Shown: piece by piece, positions 28,993-44,497 of the stretch | Layout: the number at the start of each line of letters is the position of its first letter | How positions within the stretch are numbered: the first letter of the stretch is position 1 | From: Oceanococcus sp. HetDA_MAG_MS8 | GTDB taxonomy: Bacteria > Pseudomonadota > Gammaproteobacteria > Nevskiales > Oceanococcaceae | Assembly (NCBI GenBank): GCA_019192445.1 | Contig: JAHCMK010000003.1 | Span: forward strand, 1-64,000 | Length of the DNA stretch: 64,000 nucleotides | Reading direction: 5' to 3' | Translations under genes and position numbers: made by a program | Notes under the pieces: model-generated | What the model was told of the DNA's origin: nothing | Seen by the model: only the letters and a program-made list of their open reading frames with translations | Databases searched by the model: none

Positions 28993-30069
28993 ATGCACCG
29001 CTCAGAGGAACACTTTGCGAACTCCAACTCCTTGGTGCACGGCGGCATGGTATCTGTGGCTTGGTTGTACCCCGTTTATCAGGAGCTCAAGGCCAAAGCG
29101 CTGTTGCCGAGGCTGCGGTCTGCAGAGGGGTGGCTGGTAGGTTCCGATCACACCCACCCTGACATGCGCCTGAGTCATGCTGAGGTGTATTCCTTTTGGG
29201 AGGCTGTGCGCACGCAGGTGCCGCAGCTAGAAGAAGCCCTGCTCGGTGCGGTCGAGCGCGTGCGCCTATTTGATCATGAGGGCTTACTTCCTGCGGCGTG
29301 TAGCGCGCCAACCATGCTCGAGGGCATGCGGGTCCTTGAACAGTACTGGTCTATTGCTCACGAACTCTTAGTGCTGGATGTCTTCGAGCTCGATGGGGCT
29401 TTCGGAATCCGCCTGCGCAACGACACCCGCGTGCACGCTCTCGATCAGATGTTCTGCTTTTTGCTGCTCTGCCGGACGCTGCGCGATATGTTGGGTCAGC
29501 GTCCACAGGTGCATGCGCTCTGCCTGAACTTTGCAGAGCCAGAATTAGAGTCAGCGATGGAGTCGGCCCTGGGTGTTCCCGTGTTAACGGACGCAGGGTA
29601 TTCCTCGTTACTGCTAGACCGAGCGCAGGCCAAACTGTCTTTGCCTTTTGCACGGAAGCGCGTGCACCAAGCTCAATTGGATCTGGCCCGGCACGCGTTG
29701 GCGCGTCGCAGTAGTGAGCTGCAGGTGCGCACCGAGGAGTTGGTCGAAACCATACTCAACCGCCGTGAAAGCCCGAGTTTGGAGCGCGTTGCTCAGGGGC
29801 TGTACATGAGTGCGCGAACACTGCAACGCAAACTGGCGGCGCAGGGCTTATCGCTGAGTAGTGTGGTCACCGTGGTGCGACTGCGGCTTGCTCGGCGATA
29901 TTTGCTGGCCTCTCAGCGACCAATAGAACACATTTCCTCGCTGTTGGGGTTCAAGTCTCAGGCCAGCTTTTCGCGCTTCTTCGCCGAGCATAATGGGATG
30001 GCCCCCACAGATTTTCGTCGCCGTCAGGGCATGCTGAATGATGCTCCGCATCGCCATTGGCGGCCGTGA
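28993..30069 (+). CDS. AraC-family regulator heading the cellulose operon
   Basis: A 358-residue regulator with an OruR/ArgR-like N-terminal half (about 20-200) and a C-terminal AraC DNA-binding domain (about 250-345) with two helix-turn-helix units: SLERVAQGLYMSARTLQRKLAAQGL and PIEHISSLLGFKSQASFSRFFAEHNGMAPTDFR. The N-terminal half probably binds a small ligand, not identifiable here. Its stop overlaps the bcsD start as TGATG, so the genes share a transcript; local control of cellulose synthesis is the likely role. Confidence 0.88.
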   Translation: MHRSEEHFANSNSLVHGGMVSVAWLYPVYQELKAKALLPRLRSAEGWLVGSDHTHPDMRLSHAEVYSFWEAVRTQVPQLEEALLGAVERVRLFDHEGLLPAACSAPTMLEGMRVLEQYWSIAHELLVLDVFELDGAFGIRLRNDTRVHALDQMFCFLLLCRTLRDMLGQRPQVHALCLNFAEPELESAMESALGVPVLTDAGYSSLLLDRAQAKLSLPFARKRVHQAQLDLARHALARRSSELQVRTEELVETILNRRESPSLERVAQGLYMSARTLQRKLAAQGLSLSSVVTVVRLRLARRYLLASQRPIEHISSLLGFKSQASFSRFFAEHNGMAPTDFRRRQGMLNDAPHRHWRP

Positions 30070-30629
30070 TGGAAACGATGCATTGGATAACTCAGTCCGA
30101 AGCTGGGATCATAGCGAGAGTAGATCCATCGGGACACGGGATGTTGAGCCGAATGCAGCGACTGCGCGACTTGCGCAAGCCGCCTCATACCGCTGTGATT
30201 TTGCAATCCTTGGCTGAGGTATTGTCAAATAGCGTCGATGCTGGGCAGTTGCGCTCTTTGCTCTATTTGGCAGGAGAGCAACTCGGGCGGGATCACCCCA
30301 CGCCGCAGTGCGAGACCATTGAAGACTTGGAGCTGGCAACCAACCATATCTTCCAGGAATGGGGTTGGGGCTGGGTCACGATCACGCTGCGTGAAGATGT
30401 GATCGATATAGAGGTCGGTGATGCGCCTGTGCACAGCATTTTTGGTCCGAATAGTGCTGAGTGGGCGCCAGCCGTCTTTGAAGGTTTACTCAAAGAGTGG
30501 TTGGTGGAGCTCGGTGCTGGGGCCGACCTGGTCCTGCGGCAAATCATCAGTGACGCCGACGATCCACATATTTTGTACTTCCGAATGGCTCACGCCAGTG
30601 TATTCGACAGTGGGGAGAGTGAAGCATGA
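30069..30629 (+). CDS. bcsD: Cellulose synthase operon protein BcsD
   Basis: A protein of up to 186 residues. The part from about residue 50 matches the BcsD family of Komagataeibacter: a LLYLAGEQLG helix, C-E-T-I-E-D-L-E-L, WGWGWVTITLRED, the conserved W-A-P-A-V-F-E-G-L, and the end ILYFRMAH. BcsD forms periplasmic octameric rings in Komagataeibacter or scaffolds with proline-rich partners that order the export of glucan chains. No signal peptide is seen, as usual for the family. The ATG at 30069 overlaps the araC stop; ATG 30141 is an alternative closer to family length. Confidence 0.82.
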   Translation: METMHWITQSEAGIIARVDPSGHGMLSRMQRLRDLRKPPHTAVILQSLAEVLSNSVDAGQLRSLLYLAGEQLGRDHPTPQCETIEDLELATNHIFQEWGWGWVTITLREDVIDIEVGDAPVHSIFGPNSAEWAPAVFEGLLKEWLVELGAGADLVLRQIISDADDPHILYFRMAHASVFDSGESEA

Positions 30630-31252
30630 CTCGGCGCCCACCGCAGAGCAGCGTAGACATTATGGCTAAAGACAGAAAACCCGATGCAGACAGCAAGCAA
30701 GCCATTGACGACGTGCAGATGATGCTGCGGTCCTTGGGGCTGGCAGACTTTGGTTATCAGGATGAGCCGCAACCCGATGGTCGGCCGTCTTGGGCGCCCG
30801 CGCGCGTGCCAGCCTCGCCCGAGCGTCGTCCATCGCAGCGGCCTCAGTCGCAGGCTGTATCTGCTCAGATCCCAGTTGAGAAGAACTCCGCGAAGAAGAG
30901 CGAAGAGAGCAAGCGGGAGTCGCCGCGAGCCCCTGCGCCGCAACAGGTGGATGCGCCAGCCGTGCCTGCGAATAGAACCCTGCACTCACACAGCGCGCCC
31001 CCCAAATCTGTGCCTCAGCCGGGCCAAGCACTGGAGCAGCCGCGGGCTGAGGACAAGTCTGTGAGCTTGCGTGAGGCCTTTTCGCGCTTAGCCGCCAAGG
31101 CGCCTGCAGCCAAACCCAAGGGATTGAAGCTGCAGCTGGATAAAGTGCCCCAAGCGTCCAGCCCAGCGCGGAGCGTGGCGCGCAATAGCAAACGAGACTT
31201 GCGCAGTGTCTTCGGCCGCATGACAGCGCGCCCGCCAAAGACATCAGGCTAA
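30626..31252 (+). CDS. Proline-rich cellulose synthesis protein (BcsP-like)
   Basis: A 208-residue low-complexity protein rich in P, S, R, K and Q. The N-terminal segment DDVQMMLRSLGLADFGYQD resembles the conserved core of BcsR/BcsP. Residues 45-140 are disordered. Near the end are two copies of an LRxxFxR motif: SLREAFSRLAAKAP and DLRSVFGRMTARPP. Proline-rich Bcs proteins (BcsP, BcsO, BcsH) occur with BcsD, and BcsH makes a scaffold with BcsD rings. The ATGA overlap with bcsD supports a joint role. The symbol is left blank because the family call rests on composition, position and short motifs. Confidence 0.7.
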   Translation: MTRRPPQSSVDIMAKDRKPDADSKQAIDDVQMMLRSLGLADFGYQDEPQPDGRPSWAPARVPASPERRPSQRPQSQAVSAQIPVEKNSAKKSEESKRESPRAPAPQQVDAPAVPANRTLHSHSAPPKSVPQPGQALEQPRAEDKSVSLREAFSRLAAKAPAAKPKGLKLQLDKVPQASSPARSVARNSKRDLRSVFGRMTARPPKTSG

Positions 31253-31308
31253 TCCACTTCCTCCGCCAGTGGGTGTAGCCCATTGGTCTTCGATTGCCTG
31301 AGGCCAAG

Positions 31309-33438
31309 ATGCTGTTTTCCGTCAAACCCAACACATTACTGCTGATTTTGGCTGGAGCCGGGCTGGCCTTATGCGCCGCGCCTTTGCTCACCATGCAGCT
31401 CAGTCTTGTCGGCCAGCTCCTGTTTGGCCTGGGGTGTATTGCCACCAGTTATTTGCTCACGCGACTGAAGGATCGGCCGTGGCTGCTCTATACCCTGATG
31501 GGGATATCGGGCTTAACCACCTTAAGGTATCTGAGCTGGCGGCTGACCCAAACCATGCCCTTTGGTCCGGGCTTTGGCCTCGTCGATCAGGTGTTGGCGC
31601 TTGGCCTGATTGCAGCAGAACTCTACGCCCTGGTGATCTTGGTTTTTGGCTACTTTCAGGTACTCAAGCCTTTGCGGCGCAAACCGGTCCGCTTGCCCGC
31701 TGATCAAGACCTGTGGCCCAGCGTAGACGTTTACATCCCTTCGTATAACGAGCCTTTGGATGTGGTCCGCCCTACTGTACTCGCGGCGCTCAAGCTGGAT
31801 TGGCCTGCGGAGAAACTCAAAGTCTATGTTTTGGACGATGGGCGCCGAGAGGAATTCGGTGCCTTCTGCGCGCAGGTGGGTGCGACCCACATCACCAGGG
31901 ACAACAACCGGCATGCCAAGGCTGGAAACATTAACCAAGCCATGGAGAAGACGACGGGAGAGGTCATCGCCATATTCGATTGCGACCACATCCCGACTCG
32001 GTCCTTTTTGCAGTTGACGGTTGGCACCATGGTGGCCAATCCCAAAGTGGCGCTGGTGCAGACTCCGCACCATTTCTTCTCACCCGACCCTTTTGAGCGC
32101 AATCTCGATCTGTTCCGCAAGGTGCCCAACGAGGGTGAGCTGTTCTATGGCTTGCTCCAGGACGGTAATGATTATTGGGGGGCGACCTTCTTTTGCGGCT
32201 CATGCGCCTTGCTGCGTCGTACGGCGCTGGAGGAGGTCGGAGGTATCGCCGTGGAAACCGTGACCGAAGATGCGCATACCTCTTTGAAAATGCACCGCCG
32301 CGGTTGGGAAAGTGCGTACATCAACATTCCCCAAGCCGCTGGCTTGGCCACCGAATCGCTGTCTGCTCATGTTGGCCAGCGAATTCGATGGGCACGCGGT
32401 ATGGCGCAGATTTTTCGCGTTGACAACCCGCTGCTGAAAAAGGGGCTGCGCTGGGGACAGCGAATCTGCTATGCCAATGCCATGCTGCACTTTTTCTATG
32501 GCATTCCACGCATTGTGTTCTTGACGGCGCCATTGGCTTATTTGTTCTTCGACGCCAAAATTATTGCCGCTCAGGGCAGCCTGATTGCCGCTTACGCCTT
32601 GCCCCACCTGGTGTTGGCGATTATGACCAACTCGCGCATTCAGGGGGCCTATCGACATTCCTTCTGGGCAGAGGTTTACGAGACGGTACTCGCTGCATTC
32701 ATCATCGTCCCGACCACATTGGCGATCGTCAATCCCAAGCTGGGTAAATTTAACGTGACGGCTAAAGGCGGCATTGTCGATCGCGATTACTTCGACGCGG
32801 ATATTGCCAAACCCTACATGTGGCTATTCATCCTGAATATGGTTGGCATCGCAGTGGGTATGGGGCGGCTGATGTTGCCCGACGCGGCGACCGAAACCCT
32901 TTGGCTGAATATGGGTTGGACGGCGTACAACCTTTTGATCCTGGGGGCGGCCATTCGGGTGGCCGCGGAGAGCCAGCAGCGTAGGCTGCATGTGCGCGTG
33001 GATATGCACGTCCCCCTCCTAGTACGGCCTGCGCCGAGCGCCGAACAGCCGGACCCAGATTATGAGATTGGCGAAACCGTGGATATGTCCTATGGCGGGC
33101 TGAGTTATCTCTCGCTGGGTCTGATCGATCTGGACGATGGTGCTCCGGTGGAAGTGGCCTTGCTGCCTGAACGCAAAATCATGTGGTTACCAGGCACCGT
33201 TCGCCGTATTGGCGAAACGCGAGTTGCCATCCAGTTCTCGGAGATGACCTTGGAACAACAGAGCTATTTGGTGTACGTGCTATACGGGCGGGCCGATTCT
33301 TGGCTGGCCTGGCGTAAAGAAGAAACCCGTGATCGGCCCTGGCGGGCTTTGGCACATGTCGCCCGTTTCGGTTGGGCTGGCGCTGGAATCGCGCTGCGCT
33401 CCTTGCTCAATGGGCTTCGAGGAGCCAAGCATGCTTAA
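31309..33438 (+). CDS. bcsA: Cellulose synthase catalytic subunit BcsA
   Basis: A 709-residue processive family 2 glycosyltransferase of the inner membrane that polymerises UDP-glucose into beta-1,4-glucan and threads the chain outward. Active-site motifs are all present: D176-D177-G178, D224-C225-D226, T319-E320-D321 and QRIRW at 357-361. The C-terminal PilZ domain has the c-di-GMP-binding arginines R559/R563 (RLHVR) and D592-M-S-Y-G-G. About eight membrane helices flank the catalytic domain. The ATG at 31309 with GAGG upstream is preferred over a TTG at 31294. The gene overlaps bcsB by eight bases. Confidence 0.96.
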   Translation: MLFSVKPNTLLLILAGAGLALCAAPLLTMQLSLVGQLLFGLGCIATSYLLTRLKDRPWLLYTLMGISGLTTLRYLSWRLTQTMPFGPGFGLVDQVLALGLIAAELYALVILVFGYFQVLKPLRRKPVRLPADQDLWPSVDVYIPSYNEPLDVVRPTVLAALKLDWPAEKLKVYVLDDGRREEFGAFCAQVGATHITRDNNRHAKAGNINQAMEKTTGEVIAIFDCDHIPTRSFLQLTVGTMVANPKVALVQTPHHFFSPDPFERNLDLFRKVPNEGELFYGLLQDGNDYWGATFFCGSCALLRRTALEEVGGIAVETVTEDAHTSLKMHRRGWESAYINIPQAAGLATESLSAHVGQRIRWARGMAQIFRVDNPLLKKGLRWGQRICYANAMLHFFYGIPRIVFLTAPLAYLFFDAKIIAAQGSLIAAYALPHLVLAIMTNSRIQGAYRHSFWAEVYETVLAAFIIVPTTLAIVNPKLGKFNVTAKGGIVDRDYFDADIAKPYMWLFILNMVGIAVGMGRLMLPDAATETLWLNMGWTAYNLLILGAAIRVAAESQQRRLHVRVDMHVPLLVRPAPSAEQPDPDYEIGETVDMSYGGLSYLSLGLIDLDDGAPVEVALLPERKIMWLPGTVRRIGETRVAIQFSEMTLEQQSYLVYVLYGRADSWLAWRKEETRDRPWRALAHVARFGWAGAGIALRSLLNGLRGAKHA

Positions 33439-35620
33439 CAAATTGTTTGTCCCCGTCTTGCTGGCCTTGGCGCTGGTTGGGCCTGGTTATGCGCAATCAT
33501 TGGCGGCGCCGCTCAGCGCTCCTGAACATGGCTATGCCATGGCTGCTGAAGGTCCGCAGCGTCTGGATTTTCGGCGCCTGGGGGCGACCACCGCCCTCCG
33601 TCTGCGGGGGGAGTTCGCGCAATACTCCCTGCCATTTGCGGTGCGTGAAGACCAATATGTCCGCGATGCGCGTCTGGAGTTGAAGGTGGCTTTCTCTCCG
33701 CAGCTCAATCCCGAGCGTAGTCAGCTGCGCGTATTTCTCAATGATGAGGTCGTCGCGGCTGCTCGCTTAGCCGATTTGCCAAGTCCAGGCCAATGGACTC
33801 TGGCTTTGGATCCGGCCCTGTTCGTGGTTTACAACGATTTACGCTTTGAGCTCATTGCCGCCGACGCAGGGGTTGGCCCCGACAACTGCTTGGATCCCTT
33901 GAGCCCAGCACTGTGGCTGGAGGTGGCGCAGTCGAGTGCTTTGCAGCTGGAGTTGGGCAACCTGCCTTTGGCGCCCGACCTCGGCCGCTTGCCCGCGCCT
34001 TTTGTGAGCGCCGCAGATAGTCGGCGGGTTGGAGTCACGATGGTACTTCCCAGCCAGCCTGGTCCGCAGACGCTGCGCGCTGCGGTGACTTTGGCCAGCT
34101 GGTTGGGTATGCATGCCGATTATCGGGGGCTGGAGGTGACGGTGCGCCAGGGTGAGCTGCCTCCTCAGGGGCATGTGATCGTGCTCCAGAACACCACCGA
34201 GACGCGCCGGGCGCTGACAGCAGCGAGCATGAATGACGGCCCCCTCGTTCGCATCCAAGGTCACCCCCTGGATCGATCGGCGCAAATGCTCATCGTCTCT
34301 GGGGCCACACCGGAGCAGATGTTGCTGGCCGCACAGGGGCTGGCCTACGGGCATGCGGGTATGAGCGGAGAGCAGGCACGGGTGGTGAATTTCTCGGTGC
34401 CGGAGCCGCGGCCGCTTTATGCATCGCCGCGTTGGCTGCAAACGGAGGAATCGATTGCCCTAGACGATTTGATTGATGATCCCTTGTCGGTGCGCGGTTT
34501 GAATGCCGGGCCACTACAAGTGGAATTCCGGCTGCCACCGGATCTCTACTTTTTCTCCAGCGCTGAGCCGCGTTTGCACTTCGATTACCGCGCATCCGTG
34601 GCTGCGGCTCAAGGGTCATCTCTGAGTGTCTTGCTCAATGACCAGTTCGCTGATCAGGTGCCGGTGGCTCGGCGCGACGATGGTCGTGCCACGCGGGCAG
34701 TGACCAGCCTGCCGCCGACTCAGCTGACCCACCGCAATCAACTGAGCTGGCAATTCAACTTTGTCAAAACCACCAATAAGCCCTGTGAGGCCTATGACAG
34801 CAATAGCTGGGAGGGCTCGATCGATCGCAATATTCGGATGGTCTTGCCCAGACATGCGCACTTTGCGCAGATGCCGAACTTGGCCAAGCTGCGCAATGGA
34901 GGCTATCCCTTTTCACGGGCGGTGGATGGGGCACAAATGGCGTTTGTGCTCGGCCAGCAGCCCAGTTCCCAGGAACTGTCGGCTGCTCTTACCTTGGCTG
35001 CCTACTTAGGCCGCGAAGCCGGCGTGCCTTTATGGCATGCGCAAGTGTATGCCGACAGCCCCGCGGTCTTGGAGCAGGACAAGGACTTATTAATCGTCGG
35101 CACTCTTGCGGGTATGCAAGTCTTGGATGCCCTCGACGATGCACTGCCGCTGAGTCGGGAAGGCAATACCTTGCGGCTACGCCGCCCCTCATTGGCCGAG
35201 CAAGTGCAGGCCTGGCTAGAAGATCGCGACCTGCAAGCGGCCAATGACTACGCCGGAAAGGTGCTGCTCGAATCTCAGGGACGACTTGCGGCCTACATGC
35301 AAATCGAGTCTCCGCAGCATGCCGGGCGCAGTGTGGTGATTGTGGCCGCCGAAGACCCTAGTGGTCTGCCGCAAGCCGCGAAGACCTTGCTCGACCCCGG
35401 GCGGGCGCAATACCTCAGCGGCGATCTCGCTTTGGTCAATGCCCGACAGGTATCCAGCTTTGACCTGGGGCCCCGCTATGGTGTGGGCGAACTGCCGCTG
35501 GATCAGCGGGTACTGCGTTGGTTACAGCGTCACCCTTACAGCGTCATCCCTCTCATGCTACTGACGGTGCTGCTCTTTGTACTCTGCATACGTTTGGGGT
35601 TGAGTCGCCGTGCGGGTTAG
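33431..35620 (+). CDS. bcsB: Cellulose synthase periplasmic subunit BcsB
   Basis: A 729-residue protein with a signal peptide (LFVPVLLALALVGPGYAQS), alternating carbohydrate-binding and flavodoxin-like domains across the periplasm, and a C-terminal membrane anchor (VIPLMLLTVLLFVLCIRLGL) that pairs with BcsA. It guides the glucan chain through the periplasm. GAGGAG lies six bases before the ATG, which overlaps the end of bcsA. Length and layout are normal for the family. Confidence 0.94.
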   Translation: MLNKLFVPVLLALALVGPGYAQSLAAPLSAPEHGYAMAAEGPQRLDFRRLGATTALRLRGEFAQYSLPFAVREDQYVRDARLELKVAFSPQLNPERSQLRVFLNDEVVAAARLADLPSPGQWTLALDPALFVVYNDLRFELIAADAGVGPDNCLDPLSPALWLEVAQSSALQLELGNLPLAPDLGRLPAPFVSAADSRRVGVTMVLPSQPGPQTLRAAVTLASWLGMHADYRGLEVTVRQGELPPQGHVIVLQNTTETRRALTAASMNDGPLVRIQGHPLDRSAQMLIVSGATPEQMLLAAQGLAYGHAGMSGEQARVVNFSVPEPRPLYASPRWLQTEESIALDDLIDDPLSVRGLNAGPLQVEFRLPPDLYFFSSAEPRLHFDYRASVAAAQGSSLSVLLNDQFADQVPVARRDDGRATRAVTSLPPTQLTHRNQLSWQFNFVKTTNKPCEAYDSNSWEGSIDRNIRMVLPRHAHFAQMPNLAKLRNGGYPFSRAVDGAQMAFVLGQQPSSQELSAALTLAAYLGREAGVPLWHAQVYADSPAVLEQDKDLLIVGTLAGMQVLDALDDALPLSREGNTLRLRRPSLAEQVQAWLEDRDLQAANDYAGKVLLESQGRLAAYMQIESPQHAGRSVVIVAAEDPSGLPQAAKTLLDPGRAQYLSGDLALVNARQVSSFDLGPRYGVGELPLDQRVLRWLQRHPYSVIPLMLLTVLLFVLCIRLGLSRRAG

Positions 35621-35625
35621 CGCTC

Positions 35626-36750
35626 ATGCCGGTTAAACCGCGTCGACTGCCTTGCCTGCGAAGGCTTGGGGTGCTCTGCTTGTGCCTGGGTATTTGCTTT
35701 CAGGCTCAAGCCAGCTCCTGGCCGCTGTGGGAAGGCTTCAAGCAAGGTTTTATCAGTGACCAGGGCCGGGTGATTGATTGGCAAGACGGGGCCAGAACGG
35801 TCTCGGAGGGGCAGGTGTACGCCTTGTTCTTCGCGCTGGTCGCCAACGATCAAGAGACCTTCGAGTCGGTACTGGAATGGAGTGTGGCCAACTTGGCCCG
35901 TGGCAATGTCGCTGACATTGGCATGGCATGGTTGTGGGGGCAGGACAAAGTCACCAAAAGCTGGGGTGTCTTGGATGCGAACCCGGCCACCGACGCCGAA
36001 ATGTTTCTAGCTTATGCGTTGCTCGAGGCTGCTCGGCTGTGGCAACGGCCAGACTGGGCGAAACTGGGTGATCAGGTCTTGGCCAGGGTCGAGTCACAGA
36101 TGATCAAGCGCCAGGGGGATCGGGTGGTGTTGTTGCCGGCTCCCTTCGGTTTCGAGTTGGCCCAAGGCCTGCGTACCAATCCTTCCTACTTGCCGGCCTG
36201 GCAGCTGGCTTACTTCGCCCAACACTCCCAAAACCCGCTGTGGTTTGAGCTGTTGGCGCAGCTTCCCCAACTCTTGCAGAGCAGCAGCCCCCATGGTTTG
36301 CCTCCAGACTGGGTGCTGGTCACGCCGGAAGGCTATGCGCCTGACTCAGAGCGGGGCACTTTGGGCTCGTATGACGCCATTCGCTGCTACCTTTGGGCAG
36401 CGATGAGCCCCGCCCATACCGACCCAGACAAACACGCTCTCAAGCCGGTGATTACCCTGTTGCAGCGTCAGCAAACCGCTCCGGAGCGTTGGGATGTGGC
36501 CACAGGCTGGACCACGGGGGTAGGGCCAGTGGGCTTTGAGGCTAGCCTGGCCTTGTACGCCACCTGGCAACAAGAGCCAGAGCTGGCGCAGCGTCTCTGG
36601 GCCCGCGTGGCAGCGCAAACGCACGATGGTTTGGTCGGGTCGCCGGCACGCTATTACGATCAAGTGCTCACTCTGTTTGCGCAGGGTTATGCGCAGAACC
36701 GCTTTGCCTTTGCCGCTGATGGCGCTTTGCGTCGTGGGGAGACCCTGTGA
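35626..36750 (+). CDS. bcsZ: Periplasmic endoglucanase BcsZ (GH8)
   Basis: A 374-residue family 8 glycoside hydrolase that cuts beta-1,4-glucan during cellulose export. A signal peptide covers residues 1-30. The catalytic acid is E61 (TVSEGQVYAL), the base is probably D250 (GSYDAIRCYLW), and D123 (ATDAEMF) is the conserved substrate-binding aspartate. The start is five bases after the bcsB stop and the end overlaps bcsC as TGATG. Confidence 0.94.
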   Translation: MPVKPRRLPCLRRLGVLCLCLGICFQAQASSWPLWEGFKQGFISDQGRVIDWQDGARTVSEGQVYALFFALVANDQETFESVLEWSVANLARGNVADIGMAWLWGQDKVTKSWGVLDANPATDAEMFLAYALLEAARLWQRPDWAKLGDQVLARVESQMIKRQGDRVVLLPAPFGFELAQGLRTNPSYLPAWQLAYFAQHSQNPLWFELLAQLPQLLQSSSPHGLPPDWVLVTPEGYAPDSERGTLGSYDAIRCYLWAAMSPAHTDPDKHALKPVITLLQRQQTAPERWDVATGWTTGVGPVGFEASLALYATWQQEPELAQRLWARVAAQTHDGLVGSPARYYDQVLTLFAQGYAQNRFAFAADGALRRGETL

Positions 36751-39700
36751 TGAAGCCGACCCTCTTGCTGGTCTTGACTCTGTTACTTGCTGGGCCGGCC
36801 CAGGCGCAAGATTCCAACAATGGCTTGCAGCCCCTGATTGACCGAGCCGAGGAGTTGGAATCTCGCGGTCGTTTGGACCTGGCCATACAGACCTGGGAAC
36901 GACTGTTGAGCTTGCAGCCAGACAGTGAGCTGGCGCTGGCTCGTTTGGCCGGTCTGCATGAACAAAACGGTGCCGCTGACCTCGCCGCGCAATATCGGCG
37001 ACGCCTGGCAGAGCTCAACCCAAACAGCAGCCACTTACAGGGCTTGCAGGCCAAACAAGAGGCCTTGTTGCGGCAGCGGGAGTTGGTCTCTACGGCTCGC
37101 ACCGCAGTGCGTGAGGGGGATTTCGAGCGCGCGGCTCAGGCCTACTATCAGGCGCAGGATGTGCTGAGCCCGGAGGGAGCACTGGCCGTTGAAATATATG
37201 AAGGTATGGCCGGACAGGAGGCCTATTGGGAGCAGGCTGAAAAGGCTTTGCGCTCACTGGCACAGGCCGATCCCGATAATGCTCGCTTGCAGCTCGCCCT
37301 GGCGCGCGTGCACTCTTATCGACCGCAGACTCGGCGCCAGGCCATTGCTGAGCTATTCGACCTGCAGCAGCAGCTGAGTGTCGCCGCACCTGCCAAGGCC
37401 AGCTTGCGTCAGGCCCTGATCTGGTTGGAGCCCAGGGCCGCTGATCGTGGCTTGATTCAGCGCTACCTGCGCGAGATCGACGACGCCCCGGAGATTCGCG
37501 CCAAACTCGACCTGTTACGCCGGCAAGCCAGCAATCAGCGCCAGCAGCGCATTCAAGATCAGGCCGATGAGGCTTATGCTCTCTTAAGTGCAGGTGATGT
37601 TGCGGCTGCACGGCTACGGTTTCAGATGCTCGCAGAGCAGTACCCAGATGCTGGAGCGCCATTGGCTGGGCTGGCTGCCGTGGCGCAAACGGCCGGTGAC
37701 CAGGAACAGGCGGTGGCTTTCTACGAGCAGGCCAACCGCAAAAGCCCGGCCCAGTCTCGCAATTGGGCCGCAGGGCTGCGCAGTGCCCGCTTTTATCGTG
37801 ACTACAATCGCGCCGAGCAACTGCGCCTGCAAGGCAACTGGGAGGCGGCCGTGCCCCTCTTTGAGCAAGCGTTTGCCGCTGCGCCACCGGATGTGGATCC
37901 GAGCTTGCGCTTGCCCTATGCGCTGAGTTTGCAGCAGCAGGACAACTTCTCGGCTGCCATCGAGCAGTTGCAATTGGTGCTCGCCCAGCAGCCCAATCAA
38001 GCCGATGCGCGCCGGATGCTTGCCGAGGTGTATTTACGCCAGGGGAATTTAGCGGCCGCGGAAGAGCTGGTATCTACTGCAGAGGACGAGCAAATCCGTA
38101 CCCGCTTACGTCCAGCGCAGGCCGAGCGGCTGCGCGATCAGGCTCAGCAGCAGTATGCGGCGCAGCGCTACGCTGCTGCTCGTAGCCTGCTGGAGGAGGC
38201 CCTGACCCTAGACCCCGACAGCCCTTGGATCCGGCTTGATCTGGCCAGGAATCTGCGGGAGTTGGGTCAGGTGGAGGCTGCGGGTGATCTCCTCCAATCC
38301 TTGCTGCAGACGCATGGTGACGAAGCCGATGTCCGCAAGGCGGTGGCTTACCAGCAGGCTGATGCGCAGCAGTGGCCTGCGACGCTGCGCATTCTGGAAA
38401 CCATTCCCGTCGCTGCACGGGACCCGGAGCTGGTCAAACTGCAGCGCAGAGCCTGGATTGAATACCAAATTCAGCGTGCCAAGCAGGCCGCGGCACGGGG
38501 GAATTGGAGCACCGCAGATGCGGCGCTCTCAGCGGCAGCGCGGGCTGTAGGCAATGATCAAAGCTACTTTCCAAGCTTGGCCACGGGTTGGCAAACACTG
38601 GGAGACTCCGCACGGGCGCTGAGTTATCTGCGCAGGGCGATGGCCGGCGAAGCCGCAGATACCGGGGTCAAGTTGCAGTATGCCGCCATGTTGCTGCAAA
38701 ACGGTCTGGACGCGGAATTTACCGCCTTGGTCAACAGTTTGCGGGATGAGCCCCTGTCCTCGACGCAACAACAGAATCTGCAAGAGTTAGTTGTGGGCTA
38801 CCGGCTGCAGCTGGCGGACAGAGCCAGGGAGGCCGGCGATTATGCGACGGCTTATGATGCTCTGCGCGACGTGATTGTGCGCAGGCCCGAAGACACCAAT
38901 GTGGTGCTGGCGCTGGCCCGTATTTTCGCTGGCGCTGGTGATCATGAGGAAGCGCTGGCCCTCTACCAGCGGGTCTTAGATGAAGAACCCGGTCACCGTG
39001 CTGCCAACCTGGGGCTTGCGCAAACCGCCATTAGCGCTGGCCTAGATACCGAGATAATCCGCGGGGCATTGCGGCGGCTGCGGCGCGAGGATGCAACAGA
39101 CCCTGCCTACTTAGAACTGGAAGCTCAATATGCCCAGGCGCGCGGACTAGATGCCCGGGCCTTGCGCTTTATGCGGGCGGCGCAGCGTCAGCAGCAGACC
39201 AAGGAGACCACGCGCCCACCTCGGTTGGCGCTGCAGCGCTTAGCACCGACCAACTCAGTGCCATCCACGGCGGACGCTATTCCCCTGGCAGAGCCGCTGG
39301 CCCTCAAGCCTGGGGCATTTGCACGCCCTGTGTCTCCGCAGGCAGAGCCAAGTCTGTTTGCCCAGTTGCAGCCCTTACGTTTGCAATCGGCAGATTCCAC
39401 CACGCAGATGCCCGCGAGTATTGTGCTGAAGCTGGCTCCACAACTGCGGCCACGTTTTTTACGCTCGCAGCAATCCCTGCCCGCGAATGAGAGCGCGGAG
39501 AATCGGCCCATGCGTAGCTCTCCTACGGCCATGCAGCGACTACAAGCGCAGGTCAGTCCTAGGGCGACTGCGGACCTACGCTCTAGACTCCGCCAAGGGG
39601 AGGCCGGTTTGTCACGCTTATCCGATGTGGCGCTACCCCTGCAATTGCACTCCAAAGCTTTCGAATGGGGCACGGTGGGCGTTGCCGTCCGGCCTCAGGT

Positions 39701-40541
39701 GATTAGTGCGGGGGAGCTGAGCGGCGAAGCCCGCCTGCGGCTGGGGACGCTGGCATTGATTGGAGGCGGGGAGGCGGACTCGATTTCTGTGAACGACTCG
39801 GGTTTGGCCGGTAGTTTGCACTTTGCCCAGGGCGCGTTGAGCGCGAGCATTGGAGTGACGCCCTATGGGTTCTTGGAGGACCGCCTCACAGGGCATGTAC
39901 GCTGGCAGCCCCAATGGGGCGATTGGCAGCCCAAGCTGGGTTTTGTGCGCCTACCCGTCACCGATAGTGTTTTGTCCTGGGCTGGCCAACGCGATGCTTT
40001 GCTGGGCGTAAATTGGGGCGGTGTGTCCCGCTCTGGCATGGAGCTTGGTCTGGTGCGCGACATTGGCTTGTCCGGAGTCTATGCGGATCTACGCGTATCC
40101 CAGCTGGATGGACGGAATGTGGATGAGAACGCCAGCGTGGAAATGAGCGCTGGCACCTACCGCCATCGCGATTTACCCACATGGGGCCGGCTGACCTACG
40201 GCTTCAACATCACGGCCTTTGGTTATCAGACTTTCCGTGAAGACGGCGCGCCATGGTTTCCAACCAGCGCCATACTTCAGCAGGAGTTAGATCTGCTGCG
40301 CGTCGCAGAGCCCGAGCTAGACCTAGCTGGGGGTTATGCAGGCCTCGATGATTCCGGTTTGGCCTACTTGCTGCGCGGCGATTTGAGTTACCCCGTAGCG
40401 GATCGGCTTGCTGTCACGGGGCGTTTTTCCGTAGATAACGCCCAGAACTTCCGCGAGTACATTTTCCATATGGGCTTGCGTTATTCCTTTACCGGTCCCG
40501 TGGAGTTCAACAATGCCTTTGCGCAAGACTTCTTCCGCTAA
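36750..40541 (+). CDS. bcsC: Cellulose export outer membrane protein BcsC
   Basis: A 1263-residue protein: a signal peptide (1-21, ending AQA), about 19 TPR-like repeats in the periplasm (about 25-820), a Pro/Gln-rich linker (about 820-910) and a C-terminal outer membrane beta-barrel (about 930-1263) ending in the aromatic residue pattern DFFR. It forms the exit pore for cellulose. ATG 36750 is chosen over GTG 36747; GGGGAG lies upstream. Confidence 0.94.
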   Translation: MKPTLLLVLTLLLAGPAQAQDSNNGLQPLIDRAEELESRGRLDLAIQTWERLLSLQPDSELALARLAGLHEQNGAADLAAQYRRRLAELNPNSSHLQGLQAKQEALLRQRELVSTARTAVREGDFERAAQAYYQAQDVLSPEGALAVEIYEGMAGQEAYWEQAEKALRSLAQADPDNARLQLALARVHSYRPQTRRQAIAELFDLQQQLSVAAPAKASLRQALIWLEPRAADRGLIQRYLREIDDAPEIRAKLDLLRRQASNQRQQRIQDQADEAYALLSAGDVAAARLRFQMLAEQYPDAGAPLAGLAAVAQTAGDQEQAVAFYEQANRKSPAQSRNWAAGLRSARFYRDYNRAEQLRLQGNWEAAVPLFEQAFAAAPPDVDPSLRLPYALSLQQQDNFSAAIEQLQLVLAQQPNQADARRMLAEVYLRQGNLAAAEELVSTAEDEQIRTRLRPAQAERLRDQAQQQYAAQRYAAARSLLEEALTLDPDSPWIRLDLARNLRELGQVEAAGDLLQSLLQTHGDEADVRKAVAYQQADAQQWPATLRILETIPVAARDPELVKLQRRAWIEYQIQRAKQAAARGNWSTADAALSAAARAVGNDQSYFPSLATGWQTLGDSARALSYLRRAMAGEAADTGVKLQYAAMLLQNGLDAEFTALVNSLRDEPLSSTQQQNLQELVVGYRLQLADRAREAGDYATAYDALRDVIVRRPEDTNVVLALARIFAGAGDHEEALALYQRVLDEEPGHRAANLGLAQTAISAGLDTEIIRGALRRLRREDATDPAYLELEAQYAQARGLDARALRFMRAAQRQQQTKETTRPPRLALQRLAPTNSVPSTADAIPLAEPLALKPGAFARPVSPQAEPSLFAQLQPLRLQSADSTTQMPASIVLKLAPQLRPRFLRSQQSLPANESAENRPMRSSPTAMQRLQAQVSPRATADLRSRLRQGEAGLSRLSDVALPLQLHSKAFEWGTVGVAVRPQVISAGELSGEARLRLGTLALIGGGEADSISVNDSGLAGSLHFAQGALSASIGVTPYGFLEDRLTGHVRWQPQWGDWQPKLGFVRLPVTDSVLSWAGQRDALLGVNWGGVSRSGMELGLVRDIGLSGVYADLRVSQLDGRNVDENASVEMSAGTYRHRDLPTWGRLTYGFNITAFGYQTFREDGAPWFPTSAILQQELDLLRVAEPELDLAGGYAGLDDSGLAYLLRGDLSYPVADRLAVTGRFSVDNAQNFREYIFHMGLRYSFTGPVEFNNAFAQDFFR

Positions 40542-40545
40542 CTGG

Positions 40546-41001
40546 ATGCTGAAAAACCCATCTCGAGGACTGCTACGCCGCATCTTCGGTCTGGGCATCA
40601 TGGGGGGCGCCTGTAGTGTGCTCTCAGGAGCCGCGTTGGCGGCGGATCTGGCCCCACTCATTGATGGCCGTCTGGACGCGGCCATCCGCAGCTTCGAGCA
40701 ACGCTTGGCGGCCAATCCATTCGACCCGGTATTGCTCAATAATTTAGCGGTATCAGAGGCCCAGGCTGCGAACTACAGTGGTGCTCGAACCCTGCTCAGG
40801 CGCGCCGCGAAACTCGCTCCGAAGAATATCGTCATCGCCGATAACTTGGAGCAAATCAACCAATTTCTGGACCTCAGAACCCAGCAGGCAGAGTCACCTG
40901 AGGCCGCAGCCTCGCAGACACAGGCTCCAGAGGTGCTCCCCGCACCTCCAGCACTTTGGATGTCGCCCCGAATGTCGCCCCGAATGTCCGAAGAACAGTA
41001 G
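40546..41001 (+). CDS. Small exported TPR protein of the cellulose operon
   Basis: A 151-residue protein with a signal peptide (RRIFGLGIMGGACSVLSGAALAAD) and one to two TPR-like helices (IRSFEQRLAANPFDPVLLNNLAVSEAQAANYSGARTLLRRAAKLAP). It ends with a proline/methionine tail from a 12-base tandem repeat. It is not a standard Bcs subunit. It follows bcsC directly (an ATG at 40513 would overlap it), so it is probably the last gene of the operon; a periplasmic helper for BcsC is a guess. Confidence 0.7.
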   Translation: MLKNPSRGLLRRIFGLGIMGGACSVLSGAALAADLAPLIDGRLDAAIRSFEQRLAANPFDPVLLNNLAVSEAQAANYSGARTLLRRAAKLAPKNIVIADNLEQINQFLDLRTQQAESPEAAASQTQAPEVLPAPPALWMSPRMSPRMSEEQ

Positions 41002-41159: not shown

Positions 41160-42035
41160 TTAGAACCTAGGCTCGCGCTCGGGCGTTAAGAAAAACCCCA
41201 GCACCTCGCTGCCATCACGATAGGGGACGATGGCAATCAGAGTCGAGGGGCCGTCCACCTGGGGGTTTTCTGAGGCTGGACGAATGGTGGCCAAGCCCGT
41301 GGCATCCAGTGTTTCATTGCAGCGGGAGGCTAAGAAAAACTCGTAGAGGTTAAAACGGGTGTTGATCAGGCTGAGCTGACCCGCCAAAGTGCAGTCCTCG
41401 ATACTACGTCCGCCAAAGCCGCCTTGGTCATCGAACTCCAGACTGATGTTCTCCCGGCCAAAGGGATCGAGGTCGCGCCATTCTCCAGCACTCAGCTCAA
41501 ATCCGGAGATGCGCTCATACCAATTCTGCACATAGCGGCCGTCGACAGTGGCATCAACCTCCTCACCGGAAAGAGTGCCGAAAACTCGGCCATCTGGTGC
41601 GAGTCGAACATTGAGCACCGCCGGACGTATCCGGCGCTCAAACTCGGGCTCCTCTTCTTCGCCAGGGGTAATGTCTTCAAGCTCAGGCTCAACCTCGACC
41701 AAGTCAAACCACAAGACATTGGCGCGGCGATCGGCGGTATTGTCGTTGACCACGAAGCGGCCGGTGATGAACTCATCCAGCGAGTCTTTTTGACGATAGG
41801 CCACCAGGCGATTGTCGGCTCCATCCGGTGCCTCATCACCGAAGATCAACACCCAGTTCGCGGTTTGATCGTCACTGCGAATGGTTGCCTCGTAAATTCC
41901 ACCCAGGGCCGCCGAGCTGCCTTCAATGTCCGGCGGGGCGATCACATCAGATTCTGAGCTGCACCCGCAGAGAGCGAAGCTGAGCACAATGGCCATCGCT
42001 CCGAGTGGTCGCCAAGCGTTGGAGGCGTGTTTCAT
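41160..42035 (-). CDS. Lipoprotein of unknown function
   Basis: A 291-residue protein with a lipoprotein signal peptide (IVLSFALCGCSS, lipidated cysteine C25). The mature part is beta-rich and acidic, with repeated small-domain phrases such as GGIYEATIRSDDQ, VFGTLSGEEVDATVDGRYVQ and AGQLSLINTRFNLYEF, and a run of glutamates (EEEEPEFE). No family is recognised. It starts within the end of the upstream TPR/NTF2-like gene (ATGA), so both are made together. It converges with the cellulose operon. Confidence 0.7.
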   Translation of the reverse strand: MKHASNAWRPLGAMAIVLSFALCGCSSESDVIAPPDIEGSSAALGGIYEATIRSDDQTANWVLIFGDEAPDGADNRLVAYRQKDSLDEFITGRFVVNDNTADRRANVLWFDLVEVEPELEDITPGEEEEPEFERRIRPAVLNVRLAPDGRVFGTLSGEEVDATVDGRYVQNWYERISGFELSAGEWRDLDPFGRENISLEFDDQGGFGGRSIEDCTLAGQLSLINTRFNLYEFFLASRCNETLDATGLATIRPASENPQVDGPSTLIAIVPYRDGSEVLGFFLTPEREPRF

Positions 42036-43114
42036 AGCAGAACTTGCTCTCGGATAATTTGCCAACGACCATTTCTCTGGGCCCAGACCAAGCGCTTGCG
42101 CGTTTGGTCGGAATAGCGCTCGGATGTGTAGCTTTGCACGTAGCGGAAATCGATAGAGCCGTCGCGGCGGATTTTTGTTTGCACATCCGAGACTGAAATC
42201 TGTGCAGCACGCGCTTTGGGAACTTTTTCTCGGCGGTCTTCGGCCCAACTTTGCCGACTTTGGCCCAAACTGGGCTCAAAATCGGCGGCGTAATGCGACA
42301 AGTAGGCGGCAGCGTCGCCGCGTTGCCAGGCCTCTAGCCATTGCTGATGGGCGCGCCAAGCAGGCATTGCGACTGCAGGGATGCTCGCTGCGGTGGCCGC
42401 CGATCGTGATGGCACTGCCGCCTGCGACGACGGGAGGGCTGCTGGTGTGGTTTGCGGCTTGGCCAGGCCAGCTTTTTTGGGGGTCTCGCTGGGCGCTGGA
42501 GGCAGCACGGTGTTTTTGGGTGCCTGTTTTGTCCTTGCGGGCATTGGTTGCAGGCCAGGGACTGATCTTGACGTTGGCACTGAGCCAGGCTGGGACACGG
42601 GGCTTGGGCGAGGGCTAGCGCTGGGCTGGACGGGCCGCTGAGACACGGCGGAAGTAGAGGGGGTTAAAGCGGCCGCCCGCTGTGCGGCCAGACTGGCTTG
42701 CTGGGCATGCAGCGCCGCTTGGTTCTCCAGCGCGGGAAGGTAATCAGGATGGGCGGCCAGCACCTCCTTGAGCACCGCCGCGGCTTGCAGAGCTTGGCCT
42801 TGGGCCGCGAGAACCACAGCGAGATTGTTGCCGGGTTCTGGAGTTTCCGGGTGCTGTTGATGCAGACGCTCAAAGATTCGAGCGGCGAGGCTGAGCTCAC
42901 CTTGTCGGTGTGCCAACAGCCCCTTGAGGTATTGCAGCTGTGGGTCTGGGCCGAGTACTGGCTCGAGGTTGCTAATGAGTTGCTGGGCACGTGCCAGCTC
43001 CCCAGTCTGTAGGGCCGCTTCAACTTCGCTCAAATTGGCTGCAAATGCACTTAGGCTGGTCAACAACATTGCCAGCAGTGCAGGAGCGAGGCCACATTTG
43101 CCCAAGTACGCCAT
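42032..43114 (-). CDS. Exported protein with TPR repeats and NTF2-like domain
   Basis: A 360-residue protein with a signal peptide (ALLAMLLTSLSAFAAN), three TPR-like repeats (about 28-135), a long disordered Pro/Ser/Ala linker (about 140-245) and a C-terminal NTF2/SnoaL-like domain (WLEAWQRGDAAAYLSHYAADFEP, RYVQSYTSERYSDQTRKRLVW, GRWQIIREQ). Such exported NTF2-like domains sit near cell-wall or polysaccharide enzymes. AAAGGA is well placed before the ATG. It is divergent from the GH12-like gene across 132 bases and coupled to the lipoprotein gene. Confidence 0.75.
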   Translation of the reverse strand: MAYLGKCGLAPALLAMLLTSLSAFAANLSEVEAALQTGELARAQQLISNLEPVLGPDPQLQYLKGLLAHRQGELSLAARIFERLHQQHPETPEPGNNLAVVLAAQGQALQAAAVLKEVLAAHPDYLPALENQAALHAQQASLAAQRAAALTPSTSAVSQRPVQPSASPRPSPVSQPGSVPTSRSVPGLQPMPARTKQAPKNTVLPPAPSETPKKAGLAKPQTTPAALPSSQAAVPSRSAATAASIPAVAMPAWRAHQQWLEAWQRGDAAAYLSHYAADFEPSLGQSRQSWAEDRREKVPKARAAQISVSDVQTKIRRDGSIDFRYVQSYTSERYSDQTRKRLVWAQRNGRWQIIREQVLL

Positions 43115-43154
43115 GGTGTCCTTTCCCCAAGGGAGGTTGCGGTGTGTGAATGCC

Positions 43155-43201
43155 GGTTCACAAACCCGAGGGTTCACATGGTACTAAACTGTCAAGACAG
43201 T
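43155..43201. promoter_or_regulatory. Direct repeats and palindrome in divergent promoter
   Basis: GGTTCACA occurs at 43155-43162 and again at 43171-43178, exactly 16 bases apart. ACTGTCAAGACAGT at 43188-43201 has perfect 6-bp arms; on the minus strand it contains TTGACA, a good -35 match. All lie between the starts of the NTF2-like and GH12-like genes. Confidence 0.4.
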
Positions 43202-43246
43202 GAATGTGCAGGCAACGCCAAAGTGATGTTTTTCCAGCGCGCGTAT

Positions 43247-44497
43247 ATGCAGTCGATTGTCCAGCGGTTTCTAGCCTGCGGCCGGTTGGTCACTGCGTGC
43301 ATACTCGCAGTGGCGGTGACCGCGTGTCAGAGTGAGCAGGACGATATTGAGCAGCTCCTATCGCCTCTGCCAAGTTTGGCGCCTTCACCCAGTACTGCGC
43401 CTACGGCGACTCCGTTGCCGTCACAGGCTCCCACTGCGACACCAGCCCCGCGCCCGACGGCGACGCCCAGCCCGGTCGCTCTGCTGCAGTCATTGGAGTT
43501 CACGGTCAACGGGCAAAACACCCGAGTCACCGTGGACGGCGACACTCAAGAACTCACAGTGGAATATGGCAGCAATCAGTTTGGCCCTGCTGAGCTCAGT
43601 GCTTTTCAGGGGGCTCCCGGTGCCGGAATCGTGCCTGCGGTCGGGAGTCAATTTGACCTGGACCAACCTCAGGCCTTGGTTGTGCGCAGTGCGGACAACA
43701 GCGAGCAGCGCAGCGTACAAATTCGGTTCGTCCAAGATCAGGACTTTGGTCAGCTGCAAAGTTCTGCTGTAGAACAAAGCTGCACCGATTTCGCTTTGTT
43801 TGATGAGGGCTCCAAGTGGCTAGAGAACAACACTTGGAATGTGGAAAGCTTTGCCCAAGATCAATACAGCCAGTGCATTTTCCGCGGCCCCGCGCCTGCA
43901 GCAAAAATGGGCTGGAGTTGGAGCTTTCCCCTGGCACAGGCCTCCGAGGTCTACTCCTACCCGGAAATCATTTTTGGATGGAAGCCTTGGTTTCAACAGT
44001 CCACAACAGTGGTTTTGCCCAAACGACTCGGTTCAATTCGCCGACTGGATGCGGACTTTGCGGTAGAAACCTACAGTATCGGTAGCGGCCTGAACTTGGC
44101 CTTCGATATGTGGATCACGGAAGGAGCCGTTGCTTCTTTGCCCGCCATCCGCTACGAGCTCATGGTCTGGGAATATGAGCCTGGAGGTGTTGTCCCCTTC
44201 GGAGAATTACGCGCTACCCTGCGTACGTCTGAGGGACGTTATCTGCTGTATCAGGGGGAGCCAGACTGGGAACCAGAGGGTGCGAATTGGACCTACCTCG
44301 CCTTTGTTCGAGAACAGCCTCGGTTGCAGGGCGTGGTGCCCATTGGAGAGATGATTGAGGCCTTGATCCAGGCTGAGATTGTGGATCCAGATCTGTACTT
44401 GGCGTCAATTGGTTTTGGTAACGAAATTGGAGCCTCTAGCGGCTACACCGTAGTTCACCGCTACGATCTGAGCATCGAGTCTGAGACTGCCCCTTAA
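43247..44497 (+). CDS. Lipoprotein with GH12-like endoglucanase domain
   Basis: A 416-residue lipoprotein (lipobox VTAC, C27) with a Ser/Thr/Pro linker (about 40-77), a small beta-sandwich-like domain (about 80-162) and a C-terminal domain (about 178-412) matching family 12 glycoside hydrolases: SYPEIIFGWKPW, LNLAFDMWIT, ELMVWEY with nucleophile E304, and YLASIGFGNEIGASSG with acid/base E393. GH12 enzymes are endo-beta-1,4-glucanases or xyloglucanases. Anchored to a membrane next to a cellulose operon, it probably trims cellulose or releases it. ATG 43226 is an alternative start. Confidence 0.8.
   Translation: MQSIVQRFLACGRLVTACILAVAVTACQSEQDDIEQLLSPLPSLAPSPSTAPTATPLPSQAPTATPAPRPTATPSPVALLQSLEFTVNGQNTRVTVDGDTQELTVEYGSNQFGPAELSAFQGAPGAGIVPAVGSQFDLDQPQALVVRSADNSEQRSVQIRFVQDQDFGQLQSSAVEQSCTDFALFDEGSKWLENNTWNVESFAQDQYSQCIFRGPAPAAKMGWSWSFPLAQASEVYSYPEIIFGWKPWFQQSTTVVLPKRLGSIRRLDADFAVETYSIGSGLNLAFDMWITEGAVASLPAIRYELMVWEYEPGGVVPFGELRATLRTSEGRYLLYQGEPDWEPEGANWTYLAFVREQPRLQGVVPIGEMIEALIQAEIVDPDLYLASIGFGNEIGASSGYTVVHRYDLSIESETAP

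Follow-up and report, generated by a model that had tools for sequence, protein, structure and literature searches.

Why does a gene for a putative GH12 lipoprotein lie next to a bcs locus that already encodes BcsZ (GH8), the usual bcs endoglucanase, and which glucan would its product cut? The question was raised by the window, the whole stretch of 64,000 nucleotides of Oceanococcus sp. HetDA_MAG_MS8 that was analysed, in which an original prediction had placed a membrane-anchored, GH12-like cellulase that would act on self-made cellulose at the cell surface or on external glucan. A GH12 domain at a bcs locus is a real enzyme family in an unusual place, and the evidence on its family, its neighbourhood and its occurrence in other genomes is considered here with a view to its possible function.

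The GH12 gene and the neighbouring bcs locus

The features concerned are as follows (positions in the window, strand, description).

28993, +, AraC-type regulator at the start of the bcs locus
30057–30629, +, bcsD (PF03500)
30626–31252, +, 208-aa protein between bcsD and bcsA, without a Pfam match
31294–33438, +, bcsA (TIGR03030, 850 bits)
33329–35620, +, bcsB (profile match)
35518–36750, +, bcsZ, GH8 endoglucanase (NF008305, 347 bits against a cut-off of 299)
36747–40541, +, bcsC (profile match)
40513–41001, +, small TPR protein that follows bcsC, matched behind bcsC in genomes G002, G427 and G134 as well
41160–42035, −, putative lipoprotein of no known family, beside bcs also in G002 (52% identity)
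42032–43114, −, TPR protein with a Cds6_C/NTF2-like domain, beside bcs also in G002 (38% identity)
43115–43246, no strand, intergenic region between the divergent Cds6-domain and GH12 genes, with palindromes at 43145–43162 and 43188–43201
43247–44497, +, gene of the putative GH12 lipoprotein (ATG at 43247, stop at 44497, 416 aa, open frame)
43247–43330, +, putative signal peptide with lipobox VTAC and Cys28 (motif found by eye and regular expression)
43358–43486, +, Pro/Thr-rich linker, about residues 38–80 (by sequence)
43484–43741, +, middle region, about residues 80–165, with strands predicted at low confidence and without a family match
43778–44494, +, GH12 catalytic domain, about residues 178–416 (Pfam, alignment and fold model)

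The bcs genes are arranged in the order bcsD-bcsA-B-Z(GH8)-C on the + strand, and BcsZ is indeed encoded among them, as had been predicted. The GH12 gene begins 2706 bases after the end of bcsC and 133 bases from the divergently oriented Cds6-domain gene, and is followed on its 3′ side by a response regulator and a histidine kinase. Its predicted location beside the operon holds to the extent that it lies 2.7 kb past bcsC; it is not part of a same-strand run contiguous with bcsA-B-Z-C, and since two genes on the opposite strand lie in between, it adjoins the operon instead of belonging to it. The first palindrome of the divergent region consists of 18 bases (TGTGAA-N6-TTCACA). An operator shared with the bcs operon was rejected, as a search of the whole window allowing up to 2 mismatches (chance expectation 1.73) returned this palindrome once and nowhere near bcs. 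The second palindrome, recognized by eye, reads ACTGTC-AA-GACAGT.

Carriage by a phage or a plasmid was also rejected, with no phage match and no viral contig found, and with plasmid matches confined to distant Azospirillum proteins that have no bcs in their vicinity. On the Azospirillum megaplasmids (L041, 14042–15783; L042, 13916–15690) the GH12-like protein is annotated as hypothetical, is encoded directly after a glycosyltransferase gene and has no obvious signal peptide.

The reading frame is open at the predicted coordinates; an alternative in-frame ATG at position 43226 leaves the lipobox the same. The N-terminus has a hydrophobic stretch with VTAC at its end, and the predicted lipoprotein signal, recognized from this motif, is best called putative. 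Residues following the lipobox Cys set the sorting of bacterial lipoproteins (the +2 rule), and because Cys28 is directly followed by Gln-Ser and not by Asp, sorting of the GH12 protein to the outer membrane would be expected. The predicted Pro/Thr linker was found as well; a similar linker also occurs in unrelated lipoproteins of related organisms. Matches of relatives to the whole GH12 protein lay, among those listed, mainly in the signal and linker region, and they were dropped as GH12 homologues because the frames inspected proved to be lipoproteins without relation to it, further large repeat proteins or chance similarities. The beta domain that had been proposed for the middle of the protein is not established, because this region has no family match and is modelled with low confidence. 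Against Pfam it gave nothing worth naming (best GIDE, 15.6 bits, below its cut-off), searches of PDB sequences produced no convincing match and those of plasmid proteins no match, and when modelled alone it reached a pLDDT of 40.5, too poor for a fold search.

GH12 family, fold and catalytic residues

The assignment to GH12 is borne out by a family profile, by the relation to solved enzymes and by the predicted fold. The 416-aa protein has a single Pfam match, Glyco_hydro_12 (PF01670; residues 192–401, E 3.8e-10), at 40.7 bits against a cut-off of 27, and no match to the GH8 profile. A phmmer search of the PDB returned GH12 enzymes with 2jem as the best (2.8e-11), and with a profile built from 15 relatives the same entry was found at 9.3e-47, in a set of 40 distinct PDB sequences that are nearly all glucanases by name. 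An AlphaFold2 model of the whole protein has a mean pLDDT of 70.9, with blocks of mostly 80–98 in the GH12 part and low values in the linker and the middle region. The predicted GH12 part adopts the GH12 beta-jelly-roll; its best fold match is the GH12 xyloglucanase 2jem of Bacillus licheniformis (TM-score 0.89 by target length), and the best 50 matches listed from the PDB are GH12 entries by title or, for some of them, presumably.

GH12 enzymes are characterized by two catalytic glutamates, a nucleophile and an acid/base, as described in the available excerpts of PMC7303141. Both are present at the predicted places, E304 (44156–44158) in the motif ELMVW and E393 (44423–44425) in GFGNEIG, and in alignment they fall on Glu columns that are conserved in GH12 enzymes of solved structure, among them Rhodothermus marinus Cel12A. 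In an alignment of 16 proteins E393 is found in 16/16 and E304 in 15/16; the two outcomes that would have spoken against the original prediction, lack of a GH12 match and loss of the glutamates in relatives, did not occur. Judged from sequence, the product of 43247–44497 is a GH12 member with an intact catalytic pair, and it probably cuts beta-1,4-glucan chains. That it would be a catalytically weak surface protein which binds glucan instead of hydrolysing it seems very improbable: the family match is modest and an Asp takes the nucleophile position in the relative L014, but the window protein has both glutamates and its GH12 domain is predicted with high confidence. The activity of the L014 protein (1159–2178), with Asp replacing Glu at the position of E304, may be altered. 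Another relative, L013 (1228–3117), has a frame of 629 aa of which the second half appears by eye to be a second, diverged GH12-like domain.

The closest described enzymes are XG12 of B. licheniformis (2jem/2jen) and R. marinus Cel12A, which the window protein resembles in the GH12 domain, the catalytic glutamates and the fold. Identity to 2jem is about 22%, and the window protein differs from both in that it is putatively a lipoprotein, that a linker and an unassigned middle region precede its GH12 domain, and that it is encoded beside bcs.

Distribution of GH12 genes and their position relative to bcs

Comparison with related genomes shows which part of the neighbourhood is conserved. In a relative from another genus of the family (G002), the order is bcsD, a 159-aa frame at the place of the 208-aa protein, bcsA (70% identity), bcsB, bcsZ, bcsC and a small TPR frame, followed on the opposite strand by the lipoprotein and the Cds6 protein, as in the window. 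Because they occupy the same place in both, the two opposite-strand genes are part of a bcs locus conserved in two genera, and the genes at 41160–43114 may be accessory genes, as yet unnamed, of this type of bcs locus. G002 has no GH12 (PF01670), and the frame next in line looks by eye like a chromate transporter. This arrangement indicates that the window's genome (G000) gained the GH12 gene at the margin of its bcs locus, or that G002 lost it. The congener of the window's genome (G001) has no GH12, no GH8 and no BcsA above cut-off, and G003 has neither GH12 nor BcsA above cut-off; PF01670 is thus absent from all of G001–G003.

Above the PF01670 cut-off, GH12 was found in 5/369 genomes of the class, 2/85 of the order and 6/398 of the phylum, in samples that partly overlap and each contain the window's genome. 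Its sporadic occurrence in the order, its absence from G001, G002 and G003, and the G+C content of the GH12 domain (0.54, against 0.59 for the window) would fit a recent and neutral gain of the gene, without a settled role, at a variable margin of the bcs locus. The frame and the catalytic residues are intact, though, and there is a second bcs-linked case, which make such a history improbable.

This second case is MAG S141_38 (G134, contig WFXF01000083.1), where bcsA and the end of a gene for a putative GH12 lipoprotein share a contig and are 4663 bases apart; random placement of the gene would bring the two this close with a probability of about 0.4%. The bcs run of this organism is A-B-C without Z, and no GH8 was found anywhere in the genome. 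The bcs neighbourhood of this MAG (L021/L052) is itself unusual, with a fused bcsAB frame preceded by a Roadblock/LC7-domain protein. In the class sample BcsA was above cut-off in 17/369 genomes, and both GH12 and BcsA in two, the window's genome and G134, with the genes within 5 kb of each other in both; GH12 thus lies beside bcs in 2 of the 17 bcs genomes, the window's own included. Co-occurrence of GH12 and BcsA is weak, since Fisher's test gives p 0.018 when the window's genome, chosen for this feature, is included and 0.16 when it is not. Six genomes examined carry both GH12 and BcsA above cut-off (G000, G134, G427, G653, G764 and G833). The two genes are on different contigs in G427 and G764 and about 2.1 Mb apart in G653, and the GH12 gene of G833 is on a contig of 5.4 kb.

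GH12 enzymes had been considered unusual at bcs loci, in agreement with the finding of none at the 17 further BcsA loci retrieved from the class sample, 4 of them on pieces shorter than 10 kb. A BcsZ match is present at 12 of these 17 loci; the five that lack one are L088, L105, L114, L116 and L120, four of which are contigs below 10 kb. L105 belongs to G004, in which BcsZ is present at the other of its bcs loci, L106. A GH12 gene at a bcs locus was also not described in the searched, mostly non-subscription literature, as far as the available texts go; one apparent precedent (PMC6262041) was a false lead in which the search term had matched GH127/GH129.

The closest GH12 relative that was found is from a Hahella MAG (45% identity), with no bcs within the 16.5 kb GH12 locus and no BcsA above cut-off in the genome. 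GH12 genes of Flavobacteriaceae occur, by eye, among housekeeping-like frames, and an Ignavibacteriales GH12 gene lies 5′ of a gene for a GH3-like protein, also by eye. A lipobox-like N-terminus is a common feature of this GH12 group, whether bcs is present or not, and a lipid anchor is therefore no sign of a function in the bcs system. A tree of 16 GH12 domains gives firm support only to the Flavobacteriaceae group and does not group the proteins of the window and G134; the genes linked to bcs in these two genomes may be of common or of separate origin. Congeners of both bcs-linked genomes, G001 and G261 (of G134), lack GH12 as well as bcs.

The main competing explanation is an ordinary secreted GH12 enzyme that would act on external beta-glucan or xyloglucan from plants or algae and be encoded near bcs by coincidence. 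This is possible, if rather doubtful. Such an enzyme would agree with the lack of a link to bcs in the closest homologue and in most of the GH12 genes seen, with the nearest solved structures being those of the B. licheniformis xyloglucanase, and with the Ignavibacteriales gene that precedes the GH3-like protein. On the other hand, no polysaccharide-use genes were seen among the window proteins searched, and the window's genome has no GH5 cellulase. GH5 (PF00150), the only cellulase family searched for in the genomes besides GH12 and GH8, is absent from G000, G001, G002, G003, G134, G119 and G333 and present in G427, G202, G770, G653, G828 and G833; it was found in none of the two genomes with bcs-linked GH12, as compared to 6 of the 8 other GH12 genomes tested.

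A possible role in trimming self-made cellulose

The explanation that we prefer, with a probability of about one half, is that the protein is an outer-membrane lipoprotein and an active, retaining GH12 endo-beta-1,4-glucanase, acquired at the margin of a BcsD-containing cellulose locus, that cuts the cellulose made by the cell itself. The GH12 domain, held on a flexible linker, would hydrolyse beta-1,4-glucan beside the BcsC exit, and the cell's own cellulose would be cut or trimmed on emerging at the outer membrane or the cell surface. Such cutting would be a step separate from that of the periplasmic BcsZ (GH8), and it could serve to set the strand free, to loosen fibrils or to release cells. 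The analysis shows the GH12 family, the intact catalytic pair, the predicted fold, the position of the gene and its absence from G001, G002 and G003, whereas lipidation, the membrane leaflet, exposure at the surface, cellulose as the substrate and a functional link with bcs are inferred. Trimming of self-made cellulose is favoured because the gene borders a conserved bcs locus, because the second linked case has no GH8, and because neither genome has GH5. It is weakened by the closest relative having no bcs, by most of the GH12 genes seen not being bcs-linked and by the closest structure being a xyloglucanase, as well as by the weak co-occurrence, the separate and divergent orientation of the gene, the lack of the palindrome near bcs and the failure of the two bcs-linked proteins to group in the tree.

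Two known endoglucanases of cellulose synthase loci are of interest for comparison, although even the GH8 enzymes found at bcs loci are little understood. BcsZ is described as putatively periplasmic and lowers cellulose production in Salmonella, according to the excerpts available of PMC5070118. The GH12 protein is like BcsZ in being a glucanase encoded at a bcs locus, but it is of an unrelated family, encoded outside the operon and putatively lipid-anchored, and BcsZ is also present in the window. A precedent for a non-GH8 endoglucanase is CcsZ (GH5) at the clostridial cellulose synthase locus, which is named within a ccsZABHI set that has no BcsZ in the portions of PMC7710045 at hand. Unlike CcsZ, the GH12 enzyme of the window comes on top of BcsZ, whereas in G134 GH12 occurs without GH8.

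The situation in MAG S141_38, with GH12 and without GH8, suggests that the GH12 family can stand in for BcsZ. It may tentatively be proposed that scattered Gammaproteobacteria have independently recruited a lipid-anchored GH12 enzyme to their bcs loci, either beside BcsZ, as in the window's genome, or instead of it, as in MAG S141_38. A new bcs variant is not established by two cases of which one is the starting case; we regard the enzyme as a new member of GH12, and give a real bcs variant a modest chance.

The role of endoglucanases in cellulose synthase loci is still debated, as stated in the sections available of PMC5407803 and PMC5070118. With a second, unrelated and probably outer-membrane glucanase encoded beside BcsZ, periplasmic and surface cutting would become separable by single deletions. 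If independent recruitment is true, cellulose export would gain a cutting step at the outer membrane, carried out by an enzyme family not so far described for bcs.
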